From Sphingobacteriales bacterium (GTDB lineage: Bacteria > Bacteroidota > Bacteroidia > Sphingobacteriales > Sphingobacteriaceae), in NCBI GenBank assembly GCA_028288165.1, contig JAQBOG010000024.1, positions 123,321 through 187,320 on the forward strand: a DNA stretch of 64,000 bases, read 5' to 3'. Under the pieces are notes generated by a model. That model was not told the DNA's origin. It worked only from the letters and a program-made list of their open reading frames with translations, and ran no database searches. Positions within the stretch are counted from its first letter, which is position 1. Each line of letters starts with the position of its first letter. Positions 11,772 through 46,684 of the stretch are shown piece after piece. The position numbers were made by a program, and so were the translations under genes.

Positions 11772-11902
11772 GAAAACCTAGCAAACTTTATAAAAACATT
11801 CATAAAACATCTTTCCCAATCCTAATCATATATTGCCGAATTGTGTTCAGGTACTCTAATTATGTGAAAATGGAAAATTACGTACAATTACAGGTATTCC
11901 CT

Positions 11903-29102: not shown

Positions 29103-32100
29103 ATGCTCTACACTTTACTCATTCGACAAAGGAAAGTATGCCTATTACTGTTTTGCATGCTATCTTCTTTAATTATTAACGCCCAAACCCGAATAACAGG
29201 TAAGGTTACGGCAAGTGATGACAAACAACCTGTTATTGGTGCTTCTGTAACAGTAAAAGGTTCTACAACCGGCTCAGTAACCGGGCCAGATGGTACCTTT
29301 GTAATCAATGCCAAGGCAGGTGATGTTCTTGTTGTTACCTATATTGGTTACCAAGTGCAAAACATTACAGTTGGCTCAGCTACTAATTATAATGTTACTA
29401 TCACTCCCTCGGTAAGCACATTAAACGAAGTGGTTGTTACAGGTTATTCCTCACAACGTAAGAAGGATATTACAGGATCAGTTGCAGTTGTTGATGTTGC
29501 ACAGATGGCATCAGTACCGTCAGGCACAACAAGTCAGCTTTTACAAGGTCAAGCTTCTGGTGTTACAGTGGTAGGGCAAGGAACTCCAGGTGCTTCTGCA
29601 AGTGTTCAAATTCGTGGAGTAAGTTCTTTTGGAAATACTCAACCACTTGTTATTGTAGATGGTGTTCAGGGTAATTTGAATGACATTAATCCTAATGACG
29701 TTGCTTCAATGCAGATTTTGAAAGATGCTGGTTCTGCTTCTATATATGGTGTACGGGGTGCGAATGGTGTGATTGTAATTACCACAAAAAAAGGTAAAAA
29801 TGGTCCTCCAAAAGTTACTTACGACGCTTATTATGGTACGCAGGAGCCGATTTCAGGAAATGTTTGGAATTTAATGTCTCCAACTGAGTTGCAAACCGTA
29901 GTTGCAGGTGTAAGTGCAGCTGACCCAATTTATGGCAAGGGAGTGCCTCAGTATCTTTATATGAATAATGCTACTGGTGCAGGCGGTTATGGAAGGCCAG
30001 GTGTGCCAGGGGATGACCCGACCAAGTATGCAGCTTCAAACTATAAGTTCGACGCTTCTGATGTCCACAATAACTATCAGATTGCACAAACCAATCCTGC
30101 TGGTACAGATTGGTATCACGAAGTATTTCAATCTGCTCCTCAGCAAAACCATACACTAACTGCAAGTGGCGGAACTGAAAATTCTACTTATTTATTTTCA
30201 GCAAATTATTTAAATCAACAAGGTACCTTAATTGAAACTTATATAAAAAGGTACGGAGCCCGAATAAATACATCATTTAATATAGGGAAGAGAATCCGTG
30301 TTGGTGAGTATGCTTATATGTTCAATAGAAGTAATCCTGCATTGCCTGGAGGTAATCAAAATGAGGGAAATGCTATTTCCTATACTTACCGTACTTCAAA
30401 TTTGATACCTGTTTATGATATACAAGGTAACTATGCAGGAACACGGTTAGGTACTGCAGAAATTGGTCAAGGGGTGAACCCTGTTGCCCAACAAAGAAAT
30501 ACCAGCTTCAACAGACAAAATAACTGGGATACCCAAGGAAATGTTTTCGGAGAAGTGGATATTATCACTGGTTTAACGGCTCGTACAACATTTGGTGGAA
30601 CTATTAATAACAATTATTTTAGCAATTTCGGTGTTACTCCTTACTATAATAGGGAAGGTTTTGATAGCCCTAATAGTTATCAAGAAAATGCATTATATAA
30701 TAGTAACTGGACGTGGACTAATACATTAACTTACAATAAGACAATCGGTAACCATAGTGTTAAATTATTGGCCGGAACCGAGGCGCTTAATGCCTTCGGC
30801 AGACAGGTGGGTGGTAATTCAAATGGCTTATTTTCAAGCAGCTTTGATTATTTAACTTTAGGAAACGGCACAAGAGATATAACTAATTATAGCCAAGTCA
30901 ATCAAGCATCCACTGTATTTTCTGTATTTGGTCGGGTCGACTATGCTTTTAATGATAGGTACCTTTTAGGAGCTACAATCCGTCGCGATGGAGCTTCAGT
31001 ATTCGGTACGAACAGCCGCTATGGAGTATTTCCTGCTGTGTCTTTAGGATGGAGAGTTAGCCAAGAAAGTTTTTTAAAGAATGTAAGTTGGTTAAACGAT
31101 TTAAAACTTAGAGGTAGCTGGGGTAAAATGGGTAATTACACTAATGTAACTTATACTAATGCATTTACATTATACGGTACTGGTCAAGGTCAAGCAGGTT
31201 ATGCAATAGGTGGTGGAAATAACTCCATTTCTCAAGGCTTTTATCAAACTAATATCGGTAATATCAATACTGGATGGGAAGAAGATGTGACTTCGAATGT
31301 GGGTTTTGATGCAACCATTTTAAATAACAAAATTACCTTATCAGCAGAGTGGTATCAGAAAAAGATCAACGGATTATTGTTCCCGCAAGCTTTGCCTGCA
31401 ACCGCCGGCGGTGCATTATCACCAATAGTGAATTTAGGGGATATTAATAATAATGGTTTTGATATTTCTGCAGGTTACAACGGATCAAGTAATGATTTTA
31501 AATATAACATCACAGCAAACGTAACTACTTATAAAAATAAGGTTATTTCTGTACCAGGTGGCTTTTTTGACACATCCAATTCCAGGTTAGGGAATTTAGT
31601 TAGAAATCAAGAAGGATTTCCTGTCAGTTCTTTCTTCGGATATCAAGTTGAACGTTTATGGCAGAGCCAAGCAGAGATTGATGCTTTAAATCAAGCTTAT
31701 AGTACTAAAATTGGTGTGCCTAATTCAACTTATCAAACGGCTGCTGCCCCAGGACGTTTTAAATATCAGGATGTAAACAATGATGGTGTTATATCTCCAG
31801 ACGATAGAACTCACTTTGGAGATCCAAATCCTGATTTCACATATGGCATCAATTTAAATGCCAATTATAAACAATTTGACATTGGCGCTATTTTTTACGG
31901 GTCACAAGGTAACGAGGCTATAAACTATGTTAAATACTGGACAGATTTCTTAGGAACCTTTCCTGGTAGTAAGAGCAGAGTGTTGCTCGATGCTTGGACT
32001 CCAACCAATACCAATACCTCAATTCCTGTAGTTGAAGGTTCAGGTAATTTCAGTACAACAACAGTATTTAACTCTTATTACCTAGAAAATGCTTCTTTCT

Positions 32101-32360
32101 TAAAAATGCGCTCTTTGCAAATAGGGTACACTATTAATCCAAGCCAATTAAGGAAGATTGGTATTGATCGTTTTAGAATATATCTGCAAGGTGCTAACTT
32201 GTTTACTATTACGAAATACTCTGGCGTAGATCCTGAACTATCTTCTTCAACAGGTAACGTTAATCAGAATGGACAACAATCTGCAGCTTTTGGTATTGAT
32301 TATGGTAATTATCCTAATAATCAAAAAAGCTATTTACTGGGAGTAAACTTAACATTCTAA
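29103..32360 (+). CDS. SusC/RagA family TonB-dependent outer-membrane transporter
   Basis: This is the barrel half of a SusCD pair, importing a ligand across the outer membrane with TonB/ExbBD energy. The protein has 1085 residues with a signal peptide (about 1-28, ending INAQ). A carboxypeptidase-regulatory-like domain (about 29-115, RITGKVTASDDKQPVIGASV) is followed by the plug (about 120-235) with QGQASGVTVVGQGTPGASAS, SVQIRGVSSFG and SIYGVRGANGVIVITTKKG. The 22-strand barrel ends in YLLGVNLTF with the C-terminal Phe needed for outer-membrane insertion. susD follows 28 bp downstream. The size and plug motifs are standard, and the substrate cannot be inferred. Confidence 0.95.
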   Translation: MLYTLLIRQRKVCLLLFCMLSSLIINAQTRITGKVTASDDKQPVIGASVTVKGSTTGSVTGPDGTFVINAKAGDVLVVTYIGYQVQNITVGSATNYNVTITPSVSTLNEVVVTGYSSQRKKDITGSVAVVDVAQMASVPSGTTSQLLQGQASGVTVVGQGTPGASASVQIRGVSSFGNTQPLVIVDGVQGNLNDINPNDVASMQILKDAGSASIYGVRGANGVIVITTKKGKNGPPKVTYDAYYGTQEPISGNVWNLMSPTELQTVVAGVSAADPIYGKGVPQYLYMNNATGAGGYGRPGVPGDDPTKYAASNYKFDASDVHNNYQIAQTNPAGTDWYHEVFQSAPQQNHTLTASGGTENSTYLFSANYLNQQGTLIETYIKRYGARINTSFNIGKRIRVGEYAYMFNRSNPALPGGNQNEGNAISYTYRTSNLIPVYDIQGNYAGTRLGTAEIGQGVNPVAQQRNTSFNRQNNWDTQGNVFGEVDIITGLTARTTFGGTINNNYFSNFGVTPYYNREGFDSPNSYQENALYNSNWTWTNTLTYNKTIGNHSVKLLAGTEALNAFGRQVGGNSNGLFSSSFDYLTLGNGTRDITNYSQVNQASTVFSVFGRVDYAFNDRYLLGATIRRDGASVFGTNSRYGVFPAVSLGWRVSQESFLKNVSWLNDLKLRGSWGKMGNYTNVTYTNAFTLYGTGQGQAGYAIGGGNNSISQGFYQTNIGNINTGWEEDVTSNVGFDATILNNKITLSAEWYQKKINGLLFPQALPATAGGALSPIVNLGDINNNGFDISAGYNGSSNDFKYNITANVTTYKNKVISVPGGFFDTSNSRLGNLVRNQEGFPVSSFFGYQVERLWQSQAEIDALNQAYSTKIGVPNSTYQTAAAPGRFKYQDVNNDGVISPDDRTHFGDPNPDFTYGINLNANYKQFDIGAIFYGSQGNEAINYVKYWTDFLGTFPGSKSRVLLDAWTPTNTNTSIPVVEGSGNFSTTTVFNSYYLENASFLKMRSLQIGYTINPSQLRKIGIDRFRIYLQGANLFTITKYSGVDPELSSSTGNVNQNGQQSAAFGIDYGNYPNNQKSYLLGVNLTF

Positions 32361-32388
32361 TCTTTAAAGTGATTAAAAAGGAAATTTT

Positions 32389-34227
32389 ATGAAATTCTAT
32401 AATTATAAAGTATTAATTCCATGTTTTGCAGTGTTACTTATAACAGTTGCGGCATGTAAAAAGAGCTTTTTGGAGATTAATCCAAAAGGGCCTTTAAGTG
32501 AGTCTGTATTGGCAACCAAAGCAGGTGTGGATGGATTATTAATTGGAACCTATTCGCTGCTAGATGGAGTTTATAATGGGAATGGTAACCCGTTAGGTCC
32601 ATGGGAATCAGCGGGTTCAAACTGGATTTATGGAAGTGTTGCGTCAGATGATGCACACAAGGGTTCAACCTATGATGATCAGCCCGAAATTTACGCTATA
32701 GAAGGTTATGCCTCGACATCTGTTTTAAACCACTTTAATTCTAAATGGAGAGCAGTTTACAACGGTGTTCAACGAGCTAATGATGTTCTGAGAATTATGA
32801 GGAAAGCTTCTGGTATCGCTCCTGCCGATACTTTGCAAATTGCCGCAGAAGCACGCTTTTTAAGAGGTTTTTATCATTTGGAAGCTGTTAAAATGTGGGG
32901 AGCTAAAGTTCCTTACGTTGGTGAAAACATTACTTATGAAAATGGTAATTTCAATGTACCTAATGATGCGTCTATACTCCCTCAAATTGAAGCCGACTTT
33001 AAATTTGCTGCAGATAATTTAACAGCAAGCAAAGCGCAGATTGGACGTGTTAATAAATGGGCAGCTACAGCATTCTGGGGCAAAGCTTTGATGATTGATC
33101 AGAAATATGCTGAAGCTATTCCGGTTTTAACATCCGTAATTACTACCGGCACTACACCTGCTGGAGTTAAATATGATCTTGCTGCCAATTACGAAGATAA
33201 TTTTGATCCTACTGCTCAAATAAATTCTCCAGAAGTAGTACTTGCTTATCAATCGTCAACTCAAGATCAAGCAGGCGGATGGAATGGTAATGCTGGAGAT
33301 GCTTTGAACTTCCCTGGCGGTGGGCCTGCGAGTTGCTGCGGCTTTAATCAGCCATCATTTGACCTAGTTGATGCATATAAAGTTGATGCAGCCGGGTTAC
33401 CGATGTTTGGCACTTACAATGCTGTTGATCTCAAAAATGATATGGGTATAAAGGGTACCGACGCTTTCACACCAACCACTGAGGCGATTGACTCAAGATT
33501 GGATTGGACCGTTGGACGTAGAGGTATACCTTACTTAGATTGGGGAGTACACCCAGGTGAAAGTTGGGTTCGTGGTCAGTATTCTGGTGGTCCCTATACT
33601 CCTAAGAAAAGTATTTATATGAAAGCTGCCCAAGCGTCCACAAGTGATTTCTATGCAGGATGGGCTGCTAACCAAACCACAGCAAATAACATAAATTTAA
33701 TGCGTTTTGCTGATGTATTGCTATTGGCTGCCGAAGCAAATGTAGAAGCTGGAAGTCAGGCTACTGCTGAAATCTATATTAACCGAGTTAGAACGAGGGC
33801 TGCCAGTCCGCAAAGTATGGTTCATACTTATGTTGACGCCAGTGATCCATCCAAAGGATTTACTAATATTCCTGCTGCCAATTACAAAGTAGGACTATAC
33901 ACTGGTCAGGTTGCAGGCGGTACTAAGGCTTTTGCACGTGAAGCAGTACGTTTCGAAAGAAGATTGGAACTTGGAATGGAGGGTCATCGTTTCTTTGATC
34001 TGCAACGCTATGACATGGTTCAGCCAGGTTATATGGCATCTACCTTAAATGCGTATATAGCACACGAAACAACTGTGCCTATATTTGGGCCAAAAACAGG
34101 TACTCAAGTAGGATATTCAATTCTTCTAGGAGCAAAGTTTACCCAAGGACAAGATGAGGTTTTTCCTATTCCACAGCGCCAAATTGATATTAGTGGAGGT
34201 ATGTTGAAGCCTAATCAAAATAAATAA
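32389..34227 (+). CDS. RagB/SusD family outer-membrane lipoprotein
   Basis: This is the surface lid and ligand-binding partner of the SusC transporter. The protein has 612 residues with a lipoprotein signal ending VAAC (Cys23), followed by KKSFLEINP, the usual SusD N-terminal block. SKWRAVYNGVQRANDVLRIM, AEARFLRGFYHLEAVKMWG and NKWAATAFWGKALM form the TPR-like scaffold; MRFADVLLLAAEANVEAG and AVRFERRLELGMEGHRFFDL are the conserved C-terminal blocks. It also has GPASCCGFNQPSFDLVDAY, a central loop that may line the binding site. A perfect terminator follows 23 bp after the stop, which separates the SusCD pair from the lipoprotein operon. Confidence 0.95.
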   Translation: MKFYNYKVLIPCFAVLLITVAACKKSFLEINPKGPLSESVLATKAGVDGLLIGTYSLLDGVYNGNGNPLGPWESAGSNWIYGSVASDDAHKGSTYDDQPEIYAIEGYASTSVLNHFNSKWRAVYNGVQRANDVLRIMRKASGIAPADTLQIAAEARFLRGFYHLEAVKMWGAKVPYVGENITYENGNFNVPNDASILPQIEADFKFAADNLTASKAQIGRVNKWAATAFWGKALMIDQKYAEAIPVLTSVITTGTTPAGVKYDLAANYEDNFDPTAQINSPEVVLAYQSSTQDQAGGWNGNAGDALNFPGGGPASCCGFNQPSFDLVDAYKVDAAGLPMFGTYNAVDLKNDMGIKGTDAFTPTTEAIDSRLDWTVGRRGIPYLDWGVHPGESWVRGQYSGGPYTPKKSIYMKAAQASTSDFYAGWAANQTTANNINLMRFADVLLLAAEANVEAGSQATAEIYINRVRTRAASPQSMVHTYVDASDPSKGFTNIPAANYKVGLYTGQVAGGTKAFAREAVRFERRLELGMEGHRFFDLQRYDMVQPGYMASTLNAYIAHETTVPIFGPKTGTQVGYSILLGAKFTQGQDEVFPIPQRQIDISGGMLKPNQNK

Positions 34228-34250
34228 TCGTTTTAATTTTTATACTTGTG

Positions 34251-34280
34251 AGGTAGAGACAACATGTCTCTACCTTTTTT
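34251..34280 (+). terminator. terminator after susD
   Basis: A perfect 11-bp stem (34251-34261 with 34265-34275, core GGTAGAGAC/GTCTCTACC) with a 3-nt loop is followed by TTTTTT to 34280. An ATG inside the stem at 34264 is in frame with the next gene but is not its start. Confidence 0.9.
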
Positions 34281-34299
34281 GATTTATTCCCCCCTTATA

Positions 34300-37200
34300 A
34301 TGAAATTTAATCCCCTAAGATTTTATAGTTTTCTAATTATAATTGCTTTTATTTCCTGCAAGAAAGAAACCACTTTTGAAGCTATTAACTCTTCACATTC
34401 TGGCATTCATTTTAAAAATGAAATCATAGAAAACGATTCGATTAATCCAATTGAATTAGTCAATATTTACAATGGTGGTGGTGTTGGAATCGGGGATTTT
34501 AATAACGATAATTTACAGGATATTTATTTCACAGGTAATCAGGTTTCAAACAAACTATACATAAATAAGGGAGATTTGAGATTTGAGGATGTTACAAGCG
34601 AAGCAAATGTTGATGGATTGGGTAGGTGGGGTCGCGGTGTGGCCGTTGTTGATATTAATAATGATGGCTTGCTTGATTTATATATTTGCAACACGCTTGA
34701 CAAGGATTCCACAAAGAGGGAAAATATACTTTATGTAAACCAAGGTATTAAAAATGGTGTGCCAATATTTAAAGATATGGCAAAAGAATACGGCTTGAAT
34801 GCAAACCGGCATTCAACGATGGCCTCGTTCTTTGATTACGATAATGATGGTGATTTGGATATGTATTTAGTGGTGAATGAAAGTGTGAAAGCTGAAAATC
34901 CAAGTAAGTTTAGACCAATAATTACCGATGGATCGTTTGTAAGTACAGGGAAACTATACAGAAATGATTTTAGTAGTGCCTTAAAGCATCCAGTTTACCA
35001 AGATGTATCTAGAGAAGCAGGTATTACAATTGAAGGCTACGGGCATGGTGTTACAATAGCAGATATCAATGTAGATGGATGGAAGGACATATATGTTTCA
35101 AATGATTTTTTATCAAATAACATTCTTTATATAAATAATCATAACGGAACTTTTACTGATAAAACAAGAGAGTATTTTAAACACACTTCAGCAAATTCAA
35201 TGGGGCAGGATATTGTTGATGTAAATAATGATGGTCTTGCTGATGTTATCGAACTTGATATGGATCCAGAAGATAATTTCAGGAAGAAAATGATGCAGAA
35301 TGCTATTAGCTATCAAACATATCAGAATTTCGATCGGTTTGGCTACCAATACCAATATACGCGTAATACACTTCAGCTAAACCAAGGTCCTCGAGTACTT
35401 TCTAATGATTCAATTGGTGCTCCAGTTTTTAGCGAAATAGGTTTTCTTAGTGGCATTGAGGCAACTGATTGGAGCTGGACTCCTTTAATAAATGATTTTG
35501 ACAACGATGGTAATAAGGATATGATCGTCACGAACGGATATCCAAGAGATGTTACAGATCATGATTTCATAGCTTTTAGACAGCAGTCTTATTCTATTGC
35601 GACAACCAAACAAATTCTTGAACAAGTTCCTCAAGTCAAATTACATAATTATGCGTTCAAAAATAATGGGGACTTGACTTTTACAAACGTTTCAAAAGAA
35701 TGGGGTATGGAAATCCCGACTTTCTCGAATGGAGCAGCCTATGCTGATTTGGACAATGATGGTGATTTAGATGTGATTATTAATAATATCAACGATGAAG
35801 CTTCAGTTTTTAAAAACACTTCGAGCGATACAAAATCGGCTAAAACCAATTACCTAGAATTGAAATTTATAGGAGGCAATAACAACAAAAATGGTTTAGG
35901 TGCATTAGCTGAGATTTATTATGATAATAAGAAACAAGTTATAGAGAATACACCTTATAGGGGTTACCTTTCTTCGGTACAAAATTCGGCTCATTTTGGT
36001 CTGGGCAGTGTAACCGAAGTTGATTCTTTAATTGTTAACTGGCCAAATGGATTTAAGCAAGTACTAAACAAGGTTAAAGTGAATCAAATAATACCAGTAA
36101 ACATAAAAAATGCTGATAAATCGCGGCCATCAATCACACCAAAATTCGCATATAATGCGCTATTTAAAGATGTAACCAACAAGGTTGACATACATTTTAA
36201 GCACAAGGAATCTGATTTTGTAGATTTCAACATACAAAAACTTTTACCTCATAAATTATCGGAGTACTCTCCCGCATTAGCAGTTGGGGATATCGACAAT
36301 AATTCTTTCGATGATTTTATTTGTGCCGGTTCTGACTCTACATCAGCCCAACTGTTTTTGCAACAAAAAGATGGAAAATTTTTGCAGAAATCCTTATTCC
36401 AAATTGATTTATCCAATAAGCGAAAAGATAGTGGTTTGTTATTATTTGATGTTGATATGGATGGAGATTTGGACTTATATATTTCAAGTGGAGGTTATGA
36501 GTACAGTCCTAATTCAGCAGCATACCAAGATCATATTTATTTAAATGATGGTAAAGCAAATTTTGTTGAAAATCAATCAGCTTTGCCTAAAAATTTTACC
36601 AGTAAATTTTGCGTAAGAGCCATTGACTATGATAAAGACGGCGACCTAGACATGTTCATCGCAGGTCGTGTTGAGCCCTGGAGTTATCCAAAGCCCGTAT
36701 CAAGTTTTATTTATAGAAATGATACCCAAAGTGGCAAAGTTAAATTCACCGATGTAACGGCATCAGTAGCCAAAGAACTCCTTAATATTGGTTTGGTTTG
36801 TGACGCCGTATTTACGGATTTCGATAATGACGGTTGGCCGGATTTAGTTTTGGCGGGAGAATGGATGCCAATAACTTTTTTTAAAAATACAAAAGGCGTA
36901 TTTAAAAATATTACAACTGGTTCAGGGTTGGAAAATCATATTGGTTGGTGGAACACAATCGCTCCTGGAGACTTTGATAACGATGGAGATATAGATTATA
37001 TAGTAGGAAATCTTGGAAGAAATTCCTTTTTTAAAGCAACAGAAAAATATCCTGTACATATTATTGCTAAAGATTTTGATAAAAATGAAAGCTATGATGC
37101 TTTTCCATCTTTATATCTTCCGGATGTAAATGGAGAGCTGAAAGAATTTCCAGCACACACGAGGGACGATATGGTGAAGCAGATGATAAGTACTCGACTG

Positions 37201-37866
37201 AAGTTCCAGAATTACAAGTCATACGCTGTGGCAACAATGGATGATATATTATCACCAGAACAGAAAGAGGGAGCGTTACGATTGAAGGCAAATTATTTTC
37301 AATCGAGTTTTATTCGTAATGAAGGTAAGGGTAACTTCACTATTTCACCTTTGCCCCTGCAGGCTCAATTATCTGTTCTAAACGGAATAACGGTAAATGA
37401 CTTTGATTTAGATGGTAATTTAGACGTTATTATAAATGGGAATGACTTTGGTACAGATGTATCTGTTGGAAGATATGATGCTTTAAACGGCTTATATTTA
37501 AAAGGTAATGGCAATGGCAGCTTTAGTCCACTTTCAATTCTTCAATGCGGCATATTTATTCCAGGTAACGGGAAGGCTTTAGTTAAACTCAAAGGGGTAA
37601 AGGATAATTGCTTAATAGTTGCAAGTCAAAATAAAGGTTCAATCAAAGTTTTTCAGCAGAAAAAACCTGTAAAAATGTATACTTTTCAACCTTTGGATGT
37701 AAGTGCTACAATTAAATACAAAAATGGGAAGAGAACCAAGGAAGAATTTTATTATGGTTCATCTTTTTTGTCTCAATCTGGACGCTTCATAAACCTGAAT
37801 TCAAACATAAAATCAATTACAGTAACTAATAATAAAGGCATCAGTAAGAATATTGATGTAAATTAA
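34300..37866 (+). CDS. large FG-GAP/VCBS and ASPIC/UnbV repeat lipoprotein (A1)
   Basis: The protein has 1188 residues from the ATG at 34300, starting MKFNPLRFYSFLIIIAFISC with the lipobox Cys20, so it should be lipid-anchored, probably at the cell surface. Fourteen DxDxDGxxD-like Ca-binding motifs are visible. Seven lie before (for example DFNNDNLQD, DINNDGLLD, DYDNDGDLD) and seven after (for example DVDMDGDLD, DYDKDGDLD, DFDNDGDID) an ASPIC/UnbV domain at about 516-603 (NTPYRGYLSSVQNSAHFGLG). The arrangement suggests two seven-bladed beta-propellers. It is closely related along its whole length to A2 at 41184. Function is unknown; database names such as RNA-binding protein for this family are not supported by anything in the sequence. 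Confidence 0.88.
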   Translation: MKFNPLRFYSFLIIIAFISCKKETTFEAINSSHSGIHFKNEIIENDSINPIELVNIYNGGGVGIGDFNNDNLQDIYFTGNQVSNKLYINKGDLRFEDVTSEANVDGLGRWGRGVAVVDINNDGLLDLYICNTLDKDSTKRENILYVNQGIKNGVPIFKDMAKEYGLNANRHSTMASFFDYDNDGDLDMYLVVNESVKAENPSKFRPIITDGSFVSTGKLYRNDFSSALKHPVYQDVSREAGITIEGYGHGVTIADINVDGWKDIYVSNDFLSNNILYINNHNGTFTDKTREYFKHTSANSMGQDIVDVNNDGLADVIELDMDPEDNFRKKMMQNAISYQTYQNFDRFGYQYQYTRNTLQLNQGPRVLSNDSIGAPVFSEIGFLSGIEATDWSWTPLINDFDNDGNKDMIVTNGYPRDVTDHDFIAFRQQSYSIATTKQILEQVPQVKLHNYAFKNNGDLTFTNVSKEWGMEIPTFSNGAAYADLDNDGDLDVIINNINDEASVFKNTSSDTKSAKTNYLELKFIGGNNNKNGLGALAEIYYDNKKQVIENTPYRGYLSSVQNSAHFGLGSVTEVDSLIVNWPNGFKQVLNKVKVNQIIPVNIKNADKSRPSITPKFAYNALFKDVTNKVDIHFKHKESDFVDFNIQKLLPHKLSEYSPALAVGDIDNNSFDDFICAGSDSTSAQLFLQQKDGKFLQKSLFQIDLSNKRKDSGLLLFDVDMDGDLDLYISSGGYEYSPNSAAYQDHIYLNDGKANFVENQSALPKNFTSKFCVRAIDYDKDGDLDMFIAGRVEPWSYPKPVSSFIYRNDTQSGKVKFTDVTASVAKELLNIGLVCDAVFTDFDNDGWPDLVLAGEWMPITFFKNTKGVFKNITTGSGLENHIGWWNTIAPGDFDNDGDIDYIVGNLGRNSFFKATEKYPVHIIAKDFDKNESYDAFPSLYLPDVNGELKEFPAHTRDDMVKQMISTRLKFQNYKSYAVATMDDILSPEQKEGALRLKANYFQSSFIRNEGKGNFTISPLPLQAQLSVLNGITVNDFDLDGNLDVIINGNDFGTDVSVGRYDALNGLYLKGNGNGSFSPLSILQCGIFIPGNGKALVKLKGVKDNCLIVASQNKGSIKVFQQKKPVKMYTFQPLDVSATIKYKNGKRTKEEFYYGSSFLSQSGRFINLNSNIKSITVTNNKGISKNIDVN

Positions 37867-37934
37867 GTGAAAGCAAAATTATAAGCTAAGGCCTACCTTA
37901 CAACTGAAGTTTCTTAATTCATATCTCAATTATT

Positions 37935-39491
37935 TTGCGTCGATTAGTAATAAAGCTCGGTATTAGCTCTTCTATCATATTCACTCTTGTTAATTTATTT
38001 TATCTGAACGGTTGTAAAAACGACGGTAAAAAATTAAAAGATGCTGAGACGATAGAAGGGGAATTTCTTGTAAAGAAGTATTGTACGAGTTGCCATTCTT
38101 CCGTGTCTCCTCAATTGCTTGATAACGATACTTGGCAAAACAGTGTTTTGCCTCAGATGGGGATGAAACTTGGGATTTCTAAGTGGTCAGGTCAGTATTT
38201 TCCTGAGGATCTTCAATCTAAAATTTCAATAGTAGATTGGCAGAAAATAGTTGACTATTACTCCAGAGAAGCGCCAAAGGTATTAACAGAACGAAGTCAT
38301 ACTACCCCTTTGATTGATAGCAATGATTTCATGATTTCAAAACCTATTTTCCTTGATAGTACAGCTGTCGCGTCAACAACTATGGTCAAGTTCGATAGCC
38401 CGAAAAATGAATTGTATACGGCTGATGTGAAATCCAACAGTCTGTACGTTTGGAACAATTATTTAATCAACAAATCGAAATTTAAATTTGAATCTCCTGT
38501 AATTGATGTTTCATTTGTGCGAGATACAGGTGATAAATCTACTACATGTATCGTTACAACTATTGGTATCATGAATCCGGTGGATAATCCTCAAGGAAAA
38601 GTCTTCCAGATTGAAAAAAATAATCTTAGCACACCGAAAGTATTGGCAGATAAGCTTCCACGACCGGTTAACAGCATATCCACAGACATAAATAGGGATG
38701 GGTCTAAGGATATTATTGTTTGCGGTTTTGGCCACGACCAAGGAGGGCTATATTTACTAAAACAACAAGCAGATAAAAGCTATTCAAAAGTTATCATATC
38801 CGCACGTGCAGGTGCTACTCAAACCGCTATAGGTGATTATAATAAAGATGGGTGGCCTGATATAATATGTTTATTTGCGCAACAAGATGAAGGTATCTGG
38901 ATGTACCTGAATGATCAGCATGGCGGGTTTAAATCAATCAACCTATTGAAATTTCCGCCAGTTTATGGTTCAAGTAGTTTTCAGGCAGTGGATTTTAATA
39001 ATGATGGGCTGGTAGACATTCTTTATACGGCGGGCGACAATAGTGATTACTCCAAAATATTGAAACCATATCATGGAGTTTACATATTTATAAATAAGGG
39101 AAACTTCAAGTTTAAACAAACATTTTTCTACCCAATAAATGGCTGCACAAAAGCGGTGGCCGCTGATTTAAACAAAGATGGTAGACTAGATTTAGCCTCA
39201 ATAGCATTCTTTGCTGATTATAAAAATAATCCAAGAGAGTCTTTTATCTATTTTATGCAAAATAATAAAAATCAACTTATAGCTTATACACTTCCAATTG
39301 AGAAGCTTGGCAAGTGGATATGCATGGACGTAAATGATTTTGATAACGATGGAATGCCCGACATAGCACTTGGTAATTTTTCAATGGGTGGATTCATAAA
39401 TCAAGCTAGTGTAGCACCTAGCTGGGATACCCATTTACCTTTTATTATACTTAGAAACCGAATTAAAAAAGATGTACAAGCACATAAATAA
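37935..39491 (+). CDS. lipoprotein with CxxCH haem motif and FG-GAP repeats (B1)
   Basis: The protein has 518 residues from a TTG start at 37935; no in-frame ATG precedes the signal peptide. The lipobox is YLNGC (Cys27). A short cytochrome-c-like segment follows, with CTSCH at 50-54 and the conserved LLDNDTWQNSVLPQMGMKLG. Downstream are five Ca-binding motifs (DINRDGSKD, DYNKDGWPD, DFNNDGLVD, DLNKDGRLD, DFDNDGMPD), fitting one beta-propeller. It is paralogous to B2, which starts 1 bp after its stop, so the two are translationally coupled. Covalent haem attachment and electron transfer are inferred from the motif only; a distal axial ligand cannot be assigned. Confidence 0.8.
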   Translation: MRRLVIKLGISSSIIFTLVNLFYLNGCKNDGKKLKDAETIEGEFLVKKYCTSCHSSVSPQLLDNDTWQNSVLPQMGMKLGISKWSGQYFPEDLQSKISIVDWQKIVDYYSREAPKVLTERSHTTPLIDSNDFMISKPIFLDSTAVASTTMVKFDSPKNELYTADVKSNSLYVWNNYLINKSKFKFESPVIDVSFVRDTGDKSTTCIVTTIGIMNPVDNPQGKVFQIEKNNLSTPKVLADKLPRPVNSISTDINRDGSKDIIVCGFGHDQGGLYLLKQQADKSYSKVIISARAGATQTAIGDYNKDGWPDIICLFAQQDEGIWMYLNDQHGGFKSINLLKFPPVYGSSSFQAVDFNNDGLVDILYTAGDNSDYSKILKPYHGVYIFINKGNFKFKQTFFYPINGCTKAVAADLNKDGRLDLASIAFFADYKNNPRESFIYFMQNNKNQLIAYTLPIEKLGKWICMDVNDFDNDGMPDIALGNFSMGGFINQASVAPSWDTHLPFIILRNRIKKDVQAHK

Positions 39492-39492
39492 A

Positions 39493-41019
39493 ATGAGGAT
39501 AATTTCTATTGCAATTTCGGTGATTGTATGTTTTATGTTTGTGAACTCTTGCAAACAGAAAGCAAGTGAATTTACTTTTACCCCAACAGGGAATGATTTA
39601 AAAGACGGAGCAATATTGTCTAAACACTATTGCGGCGGATGCCATAAATATCCGTCTCCAGATATTTTAGATAAAGCCACTTGGACAAATCATGCTCTTC
39701 CATCAATGGCTCCCAAATTGCAAATATCAGTTTGGGGAGAAGCGTATTTTCAAAAAGATTTAACCACTGAGTTATCTTTAGAAAACTGGAATAAAATTGT
39801 ATCGTACTATCAAACGTTAGCTCCTGATTCACTTACTACGAAACGAGCTCATTTAAAGCTTAATGAGGATTGGGCAATCTTCAAATTCAAGCAGCCTAAG
39901 CGTGATACAACAGTGAAGTTTACCACAATGGTTTCAATTGATCCGAGTTCTTCGTTAATATATACAAGCGATCTCATGACAAACAAGTTGTATGAATGGG
40001 ACAAAAATTTAGATTCAAAAGTTATCGCAGACTTGGAAAGCCCCGCTGTAAGTTTTTTTTATACCAAAATACCAAACGGTTCTTCAAGAGCATTAGTGTC
40101 CTGTATTGGAACTATTGAAAACAGCGATGATTCAATCGGAAGTATAGAGGAAATAGTATTAAATAATGCTACGCAAAAGACAACTATTGCTTCGGCACTA
40201 CCAAAGCCTGTATATACCATTTCTGCCGATTTTAACAAAGACAAGATTAATGATTATTTAGTTTGCGGATTGGGTGGTAAAACTAAAGGCGGCTTATATC
40301 TCGTAAAAAATAACCAGGATAACAAGACTGAAATAATAAATTTAAAACCAGGTCCTGGGCCTACACAGTTAGCATCTGGCGATTTTAATCAGGACGGTTG
40401 GACCGATTTTATGGCTTTATTTAGTGTTGGTGATGAACGTTTAACTATGTATTTGAATGATCAAAATGGGCGCTTTACATCTCAAACCATTTTACGTTTC
40501 AATCCAGCAAATGGGTCAACTAGCTTTCAAATTATTGACTTTAATAAAGATGGAAAATTAGATATTATTTACACAAATGGATTCAACTTTGCTGATTCGA
40601 GAATATTAAAACCCTATCACGGCCTGTCGATCTTTATCAACCAAGGCGATTTCAAGTTTAAAAGGAAATATTTTTATCCAATAAACGGCTGTAGCAAAGC
40701 AGTAGTAAGCGACTTCGATAATGATGGCGATTACGATATTGCGACAATAGCGTTTTTTGCCGATTTTGTGAATAAGCCTTCCGAATCGTTTATATACTTT
40801 GAACAGAATAATCCATTGAGTTTTAAACCACATGCTATACCTGTATACAAGAAGGGCAGATGGATGTGTATGGATGCCGGGGATATTGACAAGGATGGCG
40901 ACATGGATATTGTTTTAGGTAATTATTCTAAAGGTTTTATTAATCAAAAGGAGCTTAAACCTTTTTGGGATAAGCAGGGTTCAATATTAGTTTTAGAAAA
41001 TAATTCAAAACACAAGTAA
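39493..41019 (+). CDS. lipoprotein with CxxCH haem motif and FG-GAP repeats (B2)
   Basis: The protein has 508 residues from the ATG at 39493, one base after the B1 stop. The alternative upstream start inside B1 is rejected because MRIISIAISVIVCFMFVNSC is a clean lipoprotein signal (Cys20). CGGCH is at 47-51, followed by KYPSPDILDKATWTNHALPS. Five Ca-binding motifs follow (DFNKDKIND, DFNQDGWTD, DFNKDGKLD, DFDNDGDYD, DIDKDGDMD). The long shared blocks with B1 (for example LKPYHG, FYPINGCxKAV, IAFFADxxNxPxESFIYF) show duplication. The role is inferred to be the same as B1: a surface or periplasmic-facing haem lipoprotein. Confidence 0.8.
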   Translation: MRIISIAISVIVCFMFVNSCKQKASEFTFTPTGNDLKDGAILSKHYCGGCHKYPSPDILDKATWTNHALPSMAPKLQISVWGEAYFQKDLTTELSLENWNKIVSYYQTLAPDSLTTKRAHLKLNEDWAIFKFKQPKRDTTVKFTTMVSIDPSSSLIYTSDLMTNKLYEWDKNLDSKVIADLESPAVSFFYTKIPNGSSRALVSCIGTIENSDDSIGSIEEIVLNNATQKTTIASALPKPVYTISADFNKDKINDYLVCGLGGKTKGGLYLVKNNQDNKTEIINLKPGPGPTQLASGDFNQDGWTDFMALFSVGDERLTMYLNDQNGRFTSQTILRFNPANGSTSFQIIDFNKDGKLDIIYTNGFNFADSRILKPYHGLSIFINQGDFKFKRKYFYPINGCSKAVVSDFDNDGDYDIATIAFFADFVNKPSESFIYFEQNNPLSFKPHAIPVYKKGRWMCMDAGDIDKDGDMDIVLGNYSKGFINQKELKPFWDKQGSILVLENNSKHK

Positions 41020-41183
41020 CCAAGTTAGGTATTCTATGATTTAAATTGCCAGTTTGTAGTAGTGATTAGTGAATAGATAATTTATCTTTTGATCTAAGAA
41101 TACTAATACCTTGTAAGTCTTCAATAATGGCTAATTTGTAAGCCGAAGTTAGCTAGCGATTCTCCGTCTTTTTCCTTATTTTT

Positions 41184-44100
41184 ATGTTGATGAAATGTTG
41201 TTTTTTTAGTTTCAATATCATTTTTTGTTTGCTTATTTCATTATGTATATCATGCAAAAATACAGATGGAAAGTTCGTTAAACTAAGTCCTGATATAACG
41301 GGTATAAATTTTACAAATGATATCCTGGAAAATGATACATTAAACGTTTTCGATTTTGAAAATATTTATAATGGTGGCGGTGTAGGTGTTGGAGATTTTA
41401 ATAATGATGGCCTTCAAGATTTATATTTTACTGGTAATATGGTATCAAACAAATTATATCTAAACAAAGGTAAAATGCAATTTGAAGATATTACAGATAA
41501 ATCGAAAACTTATGGTAAAGGCGTCTGGAGTAGAGGTGTTGCTGTGGTGGATATAAATAACGATGGTAAATTAGATATGTACGTGTGTGCAACCGCGAAG
41601 AGTAATCCAAAAGAGCGTGTGAATATATTGTATGTAAACCAAGGGGTAGACAAAAATAATATTCCAATTTTTAAAGATATGGCTTCAGAGTATGGATTGG
41701 CTGATACTACTCAAAGCACAATGGCCTACTTTTTTGATTATGATAATGATCAGGATCTCGACCTTTATATAGGTGTTAATCACATGGTAAAAGCCGACTA
41801 TTCAAATACATTCAGGAAAAGAAATTTAAACGGAGAGCATCCGAGTACGGGGAAATTATATAAAAATGATTGGGATGAAAAGCTGAAGCACGCCGTGTAT
41901 TCCGACGTTTCAAGAAAAGCCGGGATATTGGTAGAAGGTTATACTCACGCTGTTAATATATTTGATGTTAATAATGATGGATGGCAAGATATTTTTGTGG
42001 CTAATGATTATGTATCAAGTAACGTACTTTATATCAATAATCATGATGGTACATTCACAGATAAAATCCTAGATTATTTCAAGCATGCAGCGACAAATTC
42101 TATGGGCACTGACGCGATTGATCTAAATAATGATGGTCTAGAAGATGTGGTTGAGGTTGATATGGCACCTCAAGATAACTTTAGAAAGAAGATGTTTCAA
42201 AATCCATTATCTTATCAAACCTACCAAAATATTGATAGATTCGGATACCAATACCAATATATGCGAAATATGGTACAAGCAAACCAAGGCGTAACTATTG
42301 GACAGATGGACAGCATCAAAAACCCTATTTTTTCAGAGATAGGATTCTTCGCTGGCGTTGCTGAAACTGATTGGAGTTGGACACCCTTAGTTGCGGATTA
42401 TGATGATGACGGCTACAGAGATATTCTTTATACAAATGGCTTCCCTAAAGACATTACCGATCATGACTTTATAACCTTTAGACAGGAAGCATTTCAACTT
42501 ACATCTAAAGCAGAAATGCTTTCGAAGATTCCAGAAGTAAAAATTCACAACTACATATATAAAAATACTGGCCACTTTCGTTTTTCTGATAAGACAGTGG
42601 ATTGGGGTTTAGAAGAGCCATCATTTTCGAATGGTGCGGTTTATTCAGATTTAGATAATGACGGTGATTTAGATATTATTATTAATAATATAAAAGATCC
42701 CGCGTCCCTTTATGAAAATAAAATCAATACTCCAGAAAATTTAAATTTTCTAAACATAAATTTTAAAGGTGCTGATGTGAATATTCAAGGCATTGGAACG
42801 AAGGTGATATTACATCAAAAAAGTAATACCCAAACGTTTGTGAATAATCCGTATCGAGGTTATATCTCCTCTGTTTCGCCAGTTATGCATTTTGGATTAG
42901 TAAAAAATGAAACCATAGATTCTATTGAGATTTTATGGCCTGGCAACCTTAAACAAGTCTTAAAAAATGTGTCTAAAAATAAGTTATTACTTGTAGATAT
43001 TAAAAATGCTACAGGATATGATAGAAAGACAAACGATTTGTTTGCTTCAGACAACCTTTTTACCAATGTCACTTCGAAAGTGGGTGTTAATTATACACAT
43101 CAACAAACAGATTACATTGATTTCAATATCCAAAAACTGTTGCCGCATAAGTTTACTGAATATTCACCAGGTATTGCAGCTGGTGACATAAATGGTGATC
43201 AGTTAGATGATTTTATTACTGGAGGGGCCCCTGGCTTTAGTCCAATGGTATTTACTCAGAATAGTAATTCGAAGTTTACAAAAACTTCCTTGTTAACTAT
43301 TGAGCAAGCTGCTCAGAAGACGTCGGATGATCGGGGTGTTTTATTATTTGATGCAGATAGTGACGGGGATTTAGATTTATATACCTCCTCAGGTGGTTAT
43401 ATGGAAGAACAAGGGAATGCTTCGTATGCTGATGTAATTTATATAAACAACGGGAAAGGGAAGTTTTCACCCTTTCCAACTGCTTTGCCGACCAATAATG
43501 TAAGTAAATTTTGCGTGCGAGCGTCAGATTATGACCGTGATGGGGATCTTGATTTGTTCATCGCCGGAAGAGTAGAACCGCATGCATATCCAAAGCCTGC
43601 AAGCAGTTTTATTTATAGAAATGACTCTAACAATGGTAAGATATTATTTACTGATGTTACAAAATCAATAGCACCAGCATTGATAAATATTGGTTTAACC
43701 TGCGATGCCGTTTTTACAGACTTTAATAATGATGGTTGGCAGGATATGGTTTTAGCAGGGGAGTGGATGAGTATTAAATTTTTTGTAAATAAAAATGGCA
43801 GATTCACCGATATAACTAAAAATAGTGGCATAGATAACAATATAGGATGGTGGAATAGCATTACACCCGGAGATTTCGACAATGATGGCGACATAGATTA
43901 TATAGCAGGAAATGTCGGTCTTAACTCTTTTTATAGAGCAAGTAAAGATAGACCTGTGTCAATTAGAGCAAATGACTTTGATAGTAATGGTAGTTATGAT
44001 GCTGTACCTTCTCTATTCTTGCTAGCTACTTTGAATAAAGATGCACCTTGGCTAGAGTACCCGGCTCATGGTAGAGATGACCTGATAAAACAAATTATTA

Positions 44101-44777
44101 GCACCCGGATAAAATATCAAAATTATAATTTGTTTGCAAACACTACCATTGACAGCCTGATTCCAGAAAATAAAATGAAAGGAGCTCTTAAACTGTCTGC
44201 TAATTACATGGCTTCTGCATACTTGCAGAATGATGGCAAAGGACATTTCCGTATGAAAGAATTGCCTTCGGCTGCTCAAGTGTCTGTACTTAATGGGATG
44301 GTTGCTGATGATTTTGACAATGACGGCAATCTTGATGTTTGCCTGAATACCAATGATTATGGAACTGACCCCACTATGGGAAGATACGATGCCCTAAATG
44401 GCTTAGTTCTGAAAGGTGATGGAAAGGGCGGTTTTAAGCCGCTATCTATATTACAAAGCGGTATTTTTATAAGCGGAAATGGTAAGGGTTTAAGCAGATT
44501 AAGAGGTGCTGACAATTCATACCTTGTTGCGGCAACTCAAAATAGGGGCCCAATTCAAATATATAAATCTAAAAAAGATATACATATTTTAACCGCAAAC
44601 CCAGATGACCAATATGCTGAGTTAACGCTCATAAATGGGAAGAAAAGAAAAGTTGAGTGTTACTACGGTGCGTCCTTTTTATCCCAAAGCAGTAGATTCT
44701 TTGCCGTGAATAATAAAGTTAAATCTTGTATTATTACAAATTCGAAAGGTAAGGCCAGAAGTGTTACTTTAAACTAG
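41184..44777 (+). CDS. large FG-GAP/VCBS and ASPIC/UnbV repeat lipoprotein (A2)
   Basis: The protein has 1197 residues; the start may be 41184 or the ATG at 41190. The signal ends LCISC (Cys24, lipoprotein). It is a full-length paralogue of A1: both have YNGGGVGxGDFNND, the block FRKKM-Q-L/I-SYQTYQN-DRFGYQYQY, and DFNIQKLLPHK. Fourteen DxDxDG motifs are again split seven and seven around an ASPIC/UnbV domain (about 518-605, NNPYRGYISSVSPVMHFGL). A 164-bp gap upstream may hold its own promoter. The haloperoxidase-like gene starts 21 bp after the stop. As for A1, the biochemical role is unknown. Confidence 0.88.
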   Translation: MLMKCCFFSFNIIFCLLISLCISCKNTDGKFVKLSPDITGINFTNDILENDTLNVFDFENIYNGGGVGVGDFNNDGLQDLYFTGNMVSNKLYLNKGKMQFEDITDKSKTYGKGVWSRGVAVVDINNDGKLDMYVCATAKSNPKERVNILYVNQGVDKNNIPIFKDMASEYGLADTTQSTMAYFFDYDNDQDLDLYIGVNHMVKADYSNTFRKRNLNGEHPSTGKLYKNDWDEKLKHAVYSDVSRKAGILVEGYTHAVNIFDVNNDGWQDIFVANDYVSSNVLYINNHDGTFTDKILDYFKHAATNSMGTDAIDLNNDGLEDVVEVDMAPQDNFRKKMFQNPLSYQTYQNIDRFGYQYQYMRNMVQANQGVTIGQMDSIKNPIFSEIGFFAGVAETDWSWTPLVADYDDDGYRDILYTNGFPKDITDHDFITFRQEAFQLTSKAEMLSKIPEVKIHNYIYKNTGHFRFSDKTVDWGLEEPSFSNGAVYSDLDNDGDLDIIINNIKDPASLYENKINTPENLNFLNINFKGADVNIQGIGTKVILHQKSNTQTFVNNPYRGYISSVSPVMHFGLVKNETIDSIEILWPGNLKQVLKNVSKNKLLLVDIKNATGYDRKTNDLFASDNLFTNVTSKVGVNYTHQQTDYIDFNIQKLLPHKFTEYSPGIAAGDINGDQLDDFITGGAPGFSPMVFTQNSNSKFTKTSLLTIEQAAQKTSDDRGVLLFDADSDGDLDLYTSSGGYMEEQGNASYADVIYINNGKGKFSPFPTALPTNNVSKFCVRASDYDRDGDLDLFIAGRVEPHAYPKPASSFIYRNDSNNGKILFTDVTKSIAPALINIGLTCDAVFTDFNNDGWQDMVLAGEWMSIKFFVNKNGRFTDITKNSGIDNNIGWWNSITPGDFDNDGDIDYIAGNVGLNSFYRASKDRPVSIRANDFDSNGSYDAVPSLFLLATLNKDAPWLEYPAHGRDDLIKQIISTRIKYQNYNLFANTTIDSLIPENKMKGALKLSANYMASAYLQNDGKGHFRMKELPSAAQVSVLNGMVADDFDNDGNLDVCLNTNDYGTDPTMGRYDALNGLVLKGDGKGGFKPLSILQSGIFISGNGKGLSRLRGADNSYLVAATQNRGPIQIYKSKKDIHILTANPDDQYAELTLINGKKRKVECYYGASFLSQSSRFFAVNNKVKSCIITNSKGKARSVTLN

Positions 44778-44798
44778 TGGTCTGTAATTTTAAAATAA

Positions 44799-46118
44799 AT
44801 GAATAGAATATTCAAAATAGCTTTTGTTATAGTAACAATCATTGCACTATTTCAAGGATGTAACAAAAAACCAAGTTCAAAAATTAGTGATGCGGATATA
44901 TTGCACAATAACGAGGATCAACTTACTCAAGTAATAATCTACGACGTTTTTACTCCGCCAGTAGCAAGCAGAATTTATTCTTACTCATCCTTGGCATCCT
45001 ATGAAGCCTTAAGATACGCAGATCCAAAATATCAGTCGATTGTCTCTAAATTAAAAGGTTTTAATGAATTGCCTAAGCCCGAAGCTGGTAAAGAGTATAA
45101 TTATACTTTGGCGGCTACAAAGGCATTTTTTACAGTTGTTCGTAAAGTTGTTTTTTCGGTAGATTCTTTAGATCAATATGAAAACAAAACATATGATGAT
45201 TTTAAACAACAAATGGATGATTCCACGTATGCCAGATCAGTACGTTTCGGCGAGTCAATCGGAAAAGCTGTATTAGATCGTTCTGCAACAGATAACTATA
45301 AATTAACAAGAGGGAAACCCAAGTTTTTGGGAAGTAATATACCCGGTGAGTGGCGCCCAACAGCTCCAGATTATATGGACGGTGTAGAATATTGTTGGGG
45401 TACAATGAAAACATTCGCTCTTGATTCTTCTTCCCAGTTTCCTTGTCCGAAACCTATAAAGTTTAGTACTGACACGAGCAGTGCTTTCTATAAGCAAACG
45501 CTGGAAGTATATAACATAAGCAAAAATTTAACGCCCGAGCAACGGACAATCGCTAAGTATTGGGATGATAACCCTTTTGTGATCGAGCATTCGGGCCATA
45601 TGATGTTCGCTAATAAAAAAATTACCCCTGGCGGGCATTGGATTGGTATTACAGCAATTGCCTGTAAAAAATCAAAAGCTGATGCGTTAAAAACGGCCAA
45701 AGCATATGCATTAACCTCCGTGGCTATGTATGATGCATTTATTTCTTGCTGGCAAGATAAATATATAACGAAAGTTATTAGACCTATCACTGTTATTAAT
45801 GATCATATAGACCAACAATGGCAACCTATGTTGCAAACACCACCATTTCCTGAATATCCGAGCGGACACAGTACTATAACACGGGCGGCTGCAACTGTGC
45901 TTACTCATTTGTTTGGTGATGGCTTTAAATTTAACGACACAAGTGATTTGAAATACATTGGCATGCAGAGAGAGTTTAAATCTTTCGTACAGGCAGCGGA
46001 TGAGGCATCAATTAGCAGAGTATATGGAGGTATCCATTATATTGGTAGCGTGAATGCTGGTGCTGCTCAAGGAAAAAAAGTTGGTGATTATATTATTGAA
46101 AAATTAGAAAATCAGTAA
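44799..46118 (+). CDS. vanadium-dependent haloperoxidase / PAP2-type lipoprotein
   Basis: The protein has 439 residues with a lipobox (LFQGC, Cys21). The C-terminal half has the vanadate/phosphate-binding signature shared by vanadium haloperoxidases and type-2 acid phosphatases: KYITKVIRP (K-x6-RP), PEYPSGHST (PSGH) and SRVYGGIHY (SR-x5-H). The Asp often found four residues after that last His is Ser (HYIGS). An earlier PGGHW and the helical N-terminal half resemble the Bacteroidota haloperoxidase group. The activity may be halide oxidation or phosphate-ester hydrolysis; sequence does not decide. It stands at the end of the A1-B1-B2-A2 run, 1 bp before the thioredoxin gene. Confidence 0.85.
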   Translation: MNRIFKIAFVIVTIIALFQGCNKKPSSKISDADILHNNEDQLTQVIIYDVFTPPVASRIYSYSSLASYEALRYADPKYQSIVSKLKGFNELPKPEAGKEYNYTLAATKAFFTVVRKVVFSVDSLDQYENKTYDDFKQQMDDSTYARSVRFGESIGKAVLDRSATDNYKLTRGKPKFLGSNIPGEWRPTAPDYMDGVEYCWGTMKTFALDSSSQFPCPKPIKFSTDTSSAFYKQTLEVYNISKNLTPEQRTIAKYWDDNPFVIEHSGHMMFANKKITPGGHWIGITAIACKKSKADALKTAKAYALTSVAMYDAFISCWQDKYITKVIRPITVINDHIDQQWQPMLQTPPFPEYPSGHSTITRAAATVLTHLFGDGFKFNDTSDLKYIGMQREFKSFVQAADEASISRVYGGIHYIGSVNAGAAQGKKVGDYIIEKLENQ

Positions 46119-46119
46119 A

Positions 46120-46611
46120 GTGAATATCAAAAGTTTTGTAATATTATTTATTAGCCTCGTTTCATTAAATGGAAATTTAAGGGCTCAGTCAACTCCGGTT
46201 CAAAACATTCCGGACTTTACCTTCTATAAAATGAATGGACAGCCGTTTTCTAGAAAGGATTTAACGAAGGATAAAAAAATCATAATAGCATTTTTTGATA
46301 TTACCTGTGAACATTGTCAGCATGAGCTTAAGGCAATGTCTGATCATTATGCTGAATTCAAAAAGGCTGAGTTCTATCTTGTTTCATTAGATGAAGTTTC
46401 TGGAATACAGAGCTTTATGGCTAAGTATGCTCCTAAAATGAATGCTAAGCCCAATGTTACCCTGCTTCGGGATTTCAGAAGGGAATTTATTGTTAAATTC
46501 TTGCCTCTTCAATATCCAGCAATTTATGTGTATGGCCCAGATTGGCACATTGTCAAATATTTTGGCCAGAACAGCAAAATATCAGACATAATAAGTACTG
46601 TTAATAATTAA
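46120..46611 (+). CDS. TlpA/AhpC-like exported thioredoxin-fold protein
   Basis: The protein has 163 residues from a GTG start at 46120, one base after the haloperoxidase stop. A signal peptide (about 1-22, ending LRAQ) leads to the periplasm. The thioredoxin-like domain has IIIAFFDITCEHCQHELKAM with the redox motif CEHC, and a cis-Pro region near LPLQYPAIYVYG. It may reduce disulfides or prepare CxxCH cysteines for haem ligation; that link to the B lipoproteins is an inference from position. A bidirectional terminator follows 17 bp later. Confidence 0.88.
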   Translation: MNIKSFVILFISLVSLNGNLRAQSTPVQNIPDFTFYKMNGQPFSRKDLTKDKKIIIAFFDITCEHCQHELKAMSDHYAEFKKAEFYLVSLDEVSGIQSFMAKYAPKMNAKPNVTLLRDFRREFIVKFLPLQYPAIYVYGPDWHIVKYFGQNSKISDIISTVNN

Positions 46612-46628
46612 TTGGTAAAACTCCGTAA

Positions 46629-46663
46629 ACTAAAAAAGCTCCTTATTCAGGAGCTTTTTTAGT
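46629..46663. terminator. bidirectional terminator between the lipoprotein operon and the helicase gene
   Basis: A perfect 14-bp stem (46629-46642 with 46650-46663, core AAAAAAGCTCC/GGAGCTTTTTT) closes a 7-nt loop. The A6/T6 in the stem gives a T-run on either strand. It serves the convergent genes ending at 46611 (+) and 46685 (-). Confidence 0.9.
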
Positions 46664-46684
46664 TTGGTATTTTTAACGGAACGA

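Follow-up and report, generated by a model that had tools for sequence, protein, structure and literature searches.

A widely conserved pair of FG-GAP/UnbV lipoprotein and vanadium-haloperoxidase-type genes, of likely halide-oxidising chemistry, in a SusCD gene run of a Sphingobacteriales bacterium

The gene run and its products

The window analysed here, a stretch of 64,000 nucleotides from a Sphingobacteriales bacterium (GenBank assembly GCA_028288165.1, contig JAQBOG010000024.1, positions 123,321 to 187,320; source genome 68.6% complete), carries a run of eight genes that encode a SusC/SusD transporter (SusCD), four FG-GAP propeller lipoproteins, a vanadium-haloperoxidase-type lipoprotein (VHPO) and a protein of the AhpC/TSA family. 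Within this run, one kind of propeller lipoprotein and the VHPO form a module that is real and widely conserved among Bacteroidota, and whose chemistry is likely halide-oxidising.

The run occupies positions 29103 to 46611 of the window. As originally predicted, all eight open reading frames are present on the + strand, and family scans (Pfam and NCBIfam) agree with the families proposed. A SusC/RagA TonB-linked outer-membrane protein of 1085 aa (29103–32360; TIGR04056 at 811.7 bits against a cut-off of 368, with Plug and CarbopepD_reg_2) and a SusD-family lipoprotein of 612 aa (32389–34227; PF07980, E 1e-36; Cys-KKSFLE near the N-terminus) lie next to one another as a SusC/SusD transport pair. 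They are followed by two kinds of propeller lipoprotein, named here FGbig (~1,100–1,200 aa) and FGcyt. FGbig1 (34264–37866, an open reading frame of 1200 aa with a likely start at 34300) and FGbig2 (41184–44777, 1197 aa, 55% identical to FGbig1) both match FG-GAP_3 and UnbV_ASPIC and enclose FGcyt1 (37935–39491, 518 aa, TTG start; Pfam FG-GAP) and its paralogue FGcyt2 (39472–41019, 515 aa, a 44% identical match), which join a CxxCH domain to an FG-GAP propeller. The VHPO (44799–46118, 439 aa) is a PAP2-fold protein aligning over residues 33–436 with the vanadium-dependent haloperoxidase of PDB entry 4cit, from Zobellia (E 2.7e-118, 45% identity). The last gene (46120–46611, 163 aa, GTG start; PF00578, E 4e-14) encodes the AhpC/TSA protein, a member of a thioredoxin-fold family with a signal-like N-terminal stretch and a CEHC motif at 46306–46317. 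Intergenic gaps are, in gene order, 28, 36, 68, −20, 164, 21 and 1 nt. The Pfam scan of the eight proteins recognised no carbohydrate-active enzyme of the kind expected in a polysaccharide utilisation locus.

A conserved pair within the run

VHPO searches of genome contigs yielded 24 loci in named relatives (Mucilaginibacter, Daejeonella, Flavihumibacter, Flavisolibacter, other Chitinophagaceae and one Sphingobacteriales metagenome-assembled genome), a set that is closely related by construction, with several loci cut by contig ends and the closest coming mostly from Mucilaginibacter. FGbig lies upstream of the VHPO gene, on the same strand, in 23 of the 24, and the remaining locus (L017) begins at a contig end. 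SusC was present in 19, FGcyt in 15 and a thioredoxin-like gene in one (L015).

A wider sample of 247 genomes from the class Bacteroidia contained 46 with a VHPO at E≤1e-30, giving 78 matches, three of them from the source genome itself. Neighbourhoods were fetched for 62 of the 75 matches in other genomes which, with two paralogues from the source genome, make 64 genes; those of at least 395 bits are here called strong (n=48) and the others weak (n=16). FGbig occurred within the neighbourhood of about 9 kb around 40 of the 48 strong VHPOs and was the immediate same-strand neighbour of 28, the corresponding counts for the weak ones being two and one. CxxCH propellers lay near five strong VHPOs; SusC and SusD counts derive from narrow local profiles and are lower bounds. 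At the level of whole genomes, FGbig (E≤1e-80) is present in all 33 that have a VHPO at E≤1e-75 and in 15 of the 214 others (Fisher 1e-29, a value which overstates independence as the genomes are related, though 16 families are involved). It was found in 3 of 13 weak-VHPO genomes, compared with 12 of the 201 that lack VHPO (p 0.05). A binomial value of 2e-49 for linkage assumes independence and seven FGbig per genome, and is not relied on. Chance-level co-occurrence, which would have undermined the prediction, is far exceeded by the neighbourhoods observed.

The pair also recurs around close homologues of 4cit and beyond the class. A search of 120 genomes, of a family taken to be Flavobacteriaceae, located a 99% match to 4cit in one genome (G247), where three tandem FGbig genes directly precede the VHPO gene and a GyrI-like gene follows it. 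Of 19 flavobacterial-type neighbourhoods chosen by hand from 49 matches, 16 were FGbig-linked on the same strand; FGbig was mostly upstream of VHPO, and downstream in L121 and L122. In a VHPO tree of 85 rows (a quick search with no bootstrap and some long branches, rooted for drawing only), a branch with a Shimodaira–Hasegawa-like approximate likelihood ratio (SH-aLRT) support of 100 splits 70 rows, including the VHPO of the window and 4cit, from 15; 56 of the 69 genes on the 4cit branch were FGbig-linked, against none of the 15 others. Full-length homology and this placement assign our VHPO to the clade of the Zobellia iodoperoxidase. A phylum sample of 296 genomes included 19 outside Bacteroidia with a VHPO at E≤1e-70, and 11 of the 20 neighbourhoods fetched there (of 22 places) were FGbig-linked on the same strand, eight of them by adjacency. 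Because five linked loci (L126, L130, L131, L136 and L137) have no other SusC-sized open reading frame, the pair is not dependent on SusCD.

Judged from gene neighbourhoods, the conserved unit is thus the pair of FGbig and VHPO, and not the eight genes. The conserved co-occurrence of all eight families that had been proposed survives as a core of SusC, SusD, FGbig and VHPO in the named relatives, M. gossypii (L005) among those with this gene order, and as FGbig with VHPO across the phylum; it does not extend to the thioredoxin-like gene, which is rare, or to the CxxCH propellers, which are an add-on. SusCD is frequent yet not obligatory.

The remaining neighbours are more variable. Among 84 strong-VHPO regions, GyrI-like genes were found in 14 (11 adjacent), GH65 glycosidases in 8 (6 adjacent), MFS proteins in 6, GH37 trehalases in 5 and copper monooxygenase-like proteins in 3, each label being the Pfam assignment of a single representative and that of the copper monooxygenase (L066) scoring 22.6 bits, just below the Pfam cut-off of 23. 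The absence of glycoside hydrolases emphasised in the original prediction is borne out in this window, although elsewhere relatives of the module lie near GH65 and GH37. A GyrI-like small-molecule-binding protein is encoded directly after VHPO in 10 of the 19 flavobacterial-type neighbourhoods (L103, L105, L106, L109–L114 and L117). In L057, the copper monooxygenase-like protein is preceded by one of AhpC-TSA type, an arrangement that faintly recalls the CEHC and CxxCH genes of the present run.

Identity of the haloperoxidase-type protein

The motifs predicted for the run were all located, those of the VHPO active site being K-x6-RP (45759–45785), PSGH (45858–45869) and SR-x5-H (46014–46037), the last followed by x3-Ser and not x3-Asp, all on the + strand. 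The VHPO retains each vanadate-site residue checked, namely K324, R331, S358, G359, H360, R410 and H416 in Zobellia numbering, which the VHPO–4cit alignment reproduced. In class A acid phosphatases the third motif reads SR-x5-H-x3-D. The VHPO departs from it, with Ser in the fourth place beyond the last His; across 73 rows this position is Ala, Ser or Gly in 67 and Asp in 5. Since the usual final Asp is Ser, a role as an acid phosphatase is less likely, and of the two activities left open by the original prediction, haloperoxidase is favoured by the best PDB relative, 4cit, as well as by the missing Asp. We infer that the VHPO binds vanadate and oxidises halide.

Several homologues are worth recording alongside. 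In L097, L099 and L100, the active-site Lys, the second Arg and the final His are replaced, and these proteins are apparently not vanadate enzymes. The source genome contains, on contig C19 (L036:10012–10389), an open frame of 126 aa matching the C-terminal part of VHPO only, while a VHPO paralogue on contig C27 adjoins a divergent SRPBCC/GyrI-like-type protein of ~313 aa, a kind seen beside other VHPOs.

The propeller proteins

FG-GAP repeats combined with a UnbV_ASPIC domain place FGbig in the CRTAC1-like family. The strict motif D-x-[DN]-x-[DN]-G occurs 11 and 12 times in the two FGbig proteins, where shuffled sequences average 0.28 and 0.33; the 14 motifs initially ascribed to each are approached under a looser rule, which gives 13 and 14. 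FGbig is predicted to fold as a CRTAC1-like propeller with calcium-type motifs.

The FGcyt proteins carry their CxxCH motifs at 38082–38096 (FGcyt1) and 39631–39645 (FGcyt2, CGGCH), on the + strand. Both cysteines and the His of this motif, together with L, P and M of an LPxM motif, are invariant in 30 aligned sequences. A conserved CxxCH in an exported-type protein is the sequence signature of a c-type cytochrome, and the invariant Met of LPxM is a candidate haem axial ligand only. The AlphaFold2 model of FGcyt1, with a predicted local distance difference test (pLDDT) score of 87.1, predicts a small CxxCH domain set on a propeller. In two relatives, a divergent exported-type CxxCH protein (L044:6206–7417 and L046:5354–6577) adjoins the FGcyt gene.

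Hairpins and other features of the window

A terminator-like hairpin of 12 pairs with a T tail (34250–34276, + strand) stands between susD and FGbig1 and overlaps the nominal ATG of the latter at 34264. Because that codon, the start given in the original prediction, sits inside the hairpin, translation is more likely to begin at the next Met, at 34300. Among 18 named relatives, 12 of them Mucilaginibacter, the gap after susD holds a hairpin of the same kind in 17, compared with 22 of 1080 random windows; coding DNA is part of this control, and the gaps were delimited manually. The hairpin is likely an attenuator and, given this recurrence, a step-down in expression after susCD is probable for the run. 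A second terminator-like hairpin, of 18 pairs with a T tail (46626–46666, + strand), closes the run.

Upstream, one local alignment, made with no control, revealed a degenerate direct repeat of ~90 nt (28613–28699 and 29065–29154, some 450 nt apart), the second copy of which spans the susC leader and first codons, so that the pair looks like a duplicated and decayed susC start. Elsewhere in the window, a Flavo-1 RNA (Rfam RF01705, 62.4 bits) lies at 11693–11776 on the − strand.

Discussion

We consider the chances roughly even that the SusCD run and its conserved pair work as one outer-membrane halide-oxidising device which feeds SusCD import. In such a device, the halide that the VHPO would oxidise with hydrogen peroxide at the envelope is probably iodide or bromide, and the hypohalous product would attack a substrate. 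In this lineage SusCD would presumably import the product of that attack, the propellers may serve as a platform holding substrate or enzyme, and FGcyt and the CEHC protein may carry electrons or reduce thiols nearby. A more ambitious version strikes us as doubtful: a dedicated envelope halogenation machine of Bacteroidota, in which vanadium haloperoxidases depend on CRTAC1-like double-propeller lipoproteins for docking and for holding the substrate, and SusCD takes up whatever hypohalous acid releases. If true, it would amount to an oxidative analogue of polysaccharide utilisation loci, driven by halide and extending well beyond algal bacteria.

Some physiological precedent is available. According to PMC5064120, iodine uptake by Arenibacter C-21 requires glucose, oxygen and calcium, a system generating H2O2 or oxidising iodide can replace glucose, and homologues of the Zobellia enzyme number at least five in the genome. 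This physiology would fit a haloperoxidase that is supplied through the oxidation of sugar and acts together with calcium-dependent components. In Zobellia, expression of the iodoperoxidase vIPO3 was higher on the alga A. nodosum than on alginate (PMC9296495).

A number of observations weigh against a joint halide-oxidising device. The Pfam and NCBIfam scans recognised no peroxide-producing enzyme among the eight genes, and the partners of VHPO regions differ by lineage and point to no single substrate. FGbig is not exclusive to VHPO: a strong VHPO lay within 10 kb of 35 of 75 FGbig genes (at most the best two candidates scored per genome), and among the seven FGbig copies of the source genome, one occurs without SusCD. 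Since three SusCD loci of that genome (C11, C12 and C36) carry one or two FGbig-type lipoproteins with no VHPO in the fetched stretch, FGbig serves other SusCD systems too. Conversely, FGbig is missing from the regions of 8 of the 48 strong VHPOs, two of which are paralogues from the source genome; of its three full-length VHPO copies, those on C27 and C10 lack a nearby FGbig, the C27 contig ending 0.9 kb downstream of the gene. Outside the class, none of the four fetched places of f79 (our label) was linked, nor was the sole place of f90. Position 263 is Phe in the VHPO and Tyr in the Zobellia enzyme, and its choice of halide may therefore differ. Finally, acidic residues after the lipid Cys are a cue for surface export in Bacteroidota. 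They average 0.82 in VHPO against 1.93 in SusD (lipoboxes being found in 66 of 90 VHPO and 15 of 39 SusD sequences), and with this lower count an outer-face location of the VHPO is unproven.

SusCD systems usually import glycans, and the run could be a carbohydrate-uptake locus whose SusCD and propellers bind a glycan or glycoconjugate, the VHPO being an accessory that guards against or exploits peroxide from outside. The FGbig-bearing SusCD loci without VHPO in the source genome would suit this explanation, as would the GH65, GH37 and MFS genes near strong VHPOs. We nevertheless think it unlikely, as the window has no glycoside hydrolase, glycosidases are variable while strong VHPO and FGbig coincide in 33 of 33 genomes, and pairs exist with no SusC-sized gene nearby. 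Much the same genomic evidence bears on a by-stander linkage, whereby FGbig and VHPO would each be drawn to SusCD loci with no joint action. Both are indeed often near SusC or SusD, and FGbig is common, with its seven copies in the source genome; this is, for us, the least probable account in view of that genome-wide co-occurrence, immediate adjacency in 28 of 48 cases, the five loci adjacent in the absence of SusC-sized genes and the mostly upstream position of FGbig (L121 and L122 excepted).

Two further alternatives concern the substrate. The PAP2 family match of the VHPO would allow a surface phosphatase feeding SusCD, comparable to the PusCD clusters of Flavobacterium, in which SusCD-like complexes are induced by phosphate depletion and co-located with phosphatases (PMC8115612). 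Such phosphorus scavenging is quite improbable given the residue four after the last His, seldom the Asp of the acid phosphatase motif, and a best PDB relative that is a haloperoxidase; the main text of PMC8115612 makes no mention of haloperoxidase, PAP2, FG-GAP, UnbV or VCBS. A little less probable again is iodine capture, with the VHPO making HOI or I2 and SusCD and propellers importing or storing iodine or iodinated organic matter. Membership of the Zobellia iodoperoxidase clade and the dependence of Arenibacter iodine uptake on H2O2 and calcium (PMC5064120) speak for it, but the varied gene contexts of the pair do not suggest a single ligand.

Whichever substrate is involved, the family of the crystallised Zobellia iodoperoxidase gains a conserved genetic partner, and the abundant FG-GAP/UnbV lipoproteins of Bacteroidota gain a testable role. 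Should the halide-oxidising device prove correct, halide oxidation would be in wide use across the phylum for gathering nutrients or for defence, which would matter for natural organohalogens and for the cycling of iodine. Among the papers listed in our searches of the open-access literature we found no report of a haloperoxidase paired with FG-GAP, UnbV or CRTAC1, earlier mention being possible; Fournier 2014, the main biochemical paper on the Zobellia enzyme, may discuss gene context. One of the listed papers, on a Rhizobium genome, contains haloperoxidase together with VCBS.

Comparison with known systems

The nearest characterised counterpart of the VHPO is the vanadium iodoperoxidase of Zobellia galactanivorans (PDB 4cit/4usz), a full-length homologue with the same vanadate-site residues, from which it differs by Phe for Tyr at 263 and Pro for Thr at 357. 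The Zobellia-type locus has a GyrI-like gene downstream and, unlike the present locus, neither FGcyt nor the CEHC protein there. Compared with the CRTAC1 and FG-GAP/UnbV_ASPIC family, FGbig is about twice as long, has its UnbV domain flanked by FG-GAP repeats on either side, and is distinguished by its lipoprotein type and its linkage to VHPO. Polysaccharide utilisation loci are likewise headed by a SusC–SusD pair in a run of lipoprotein genes, whereas the present run has no recognised family of carbohydrate-active enzymes. The phosphate-utilisation clusters of Flavobacterium (PMC8115612) similarly combine SusCD with an enzyme other than a glycosidase, but the PAP2 protein described here is without the usual phosphatase Asp. 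Arenibacter C-21, whose iodine uptake depends on H2O2 (PMC5064120), is a flavobacterial strain with homologues of the same iodoperoxidase, and calcium as well as H2O2 matters in that uptake.

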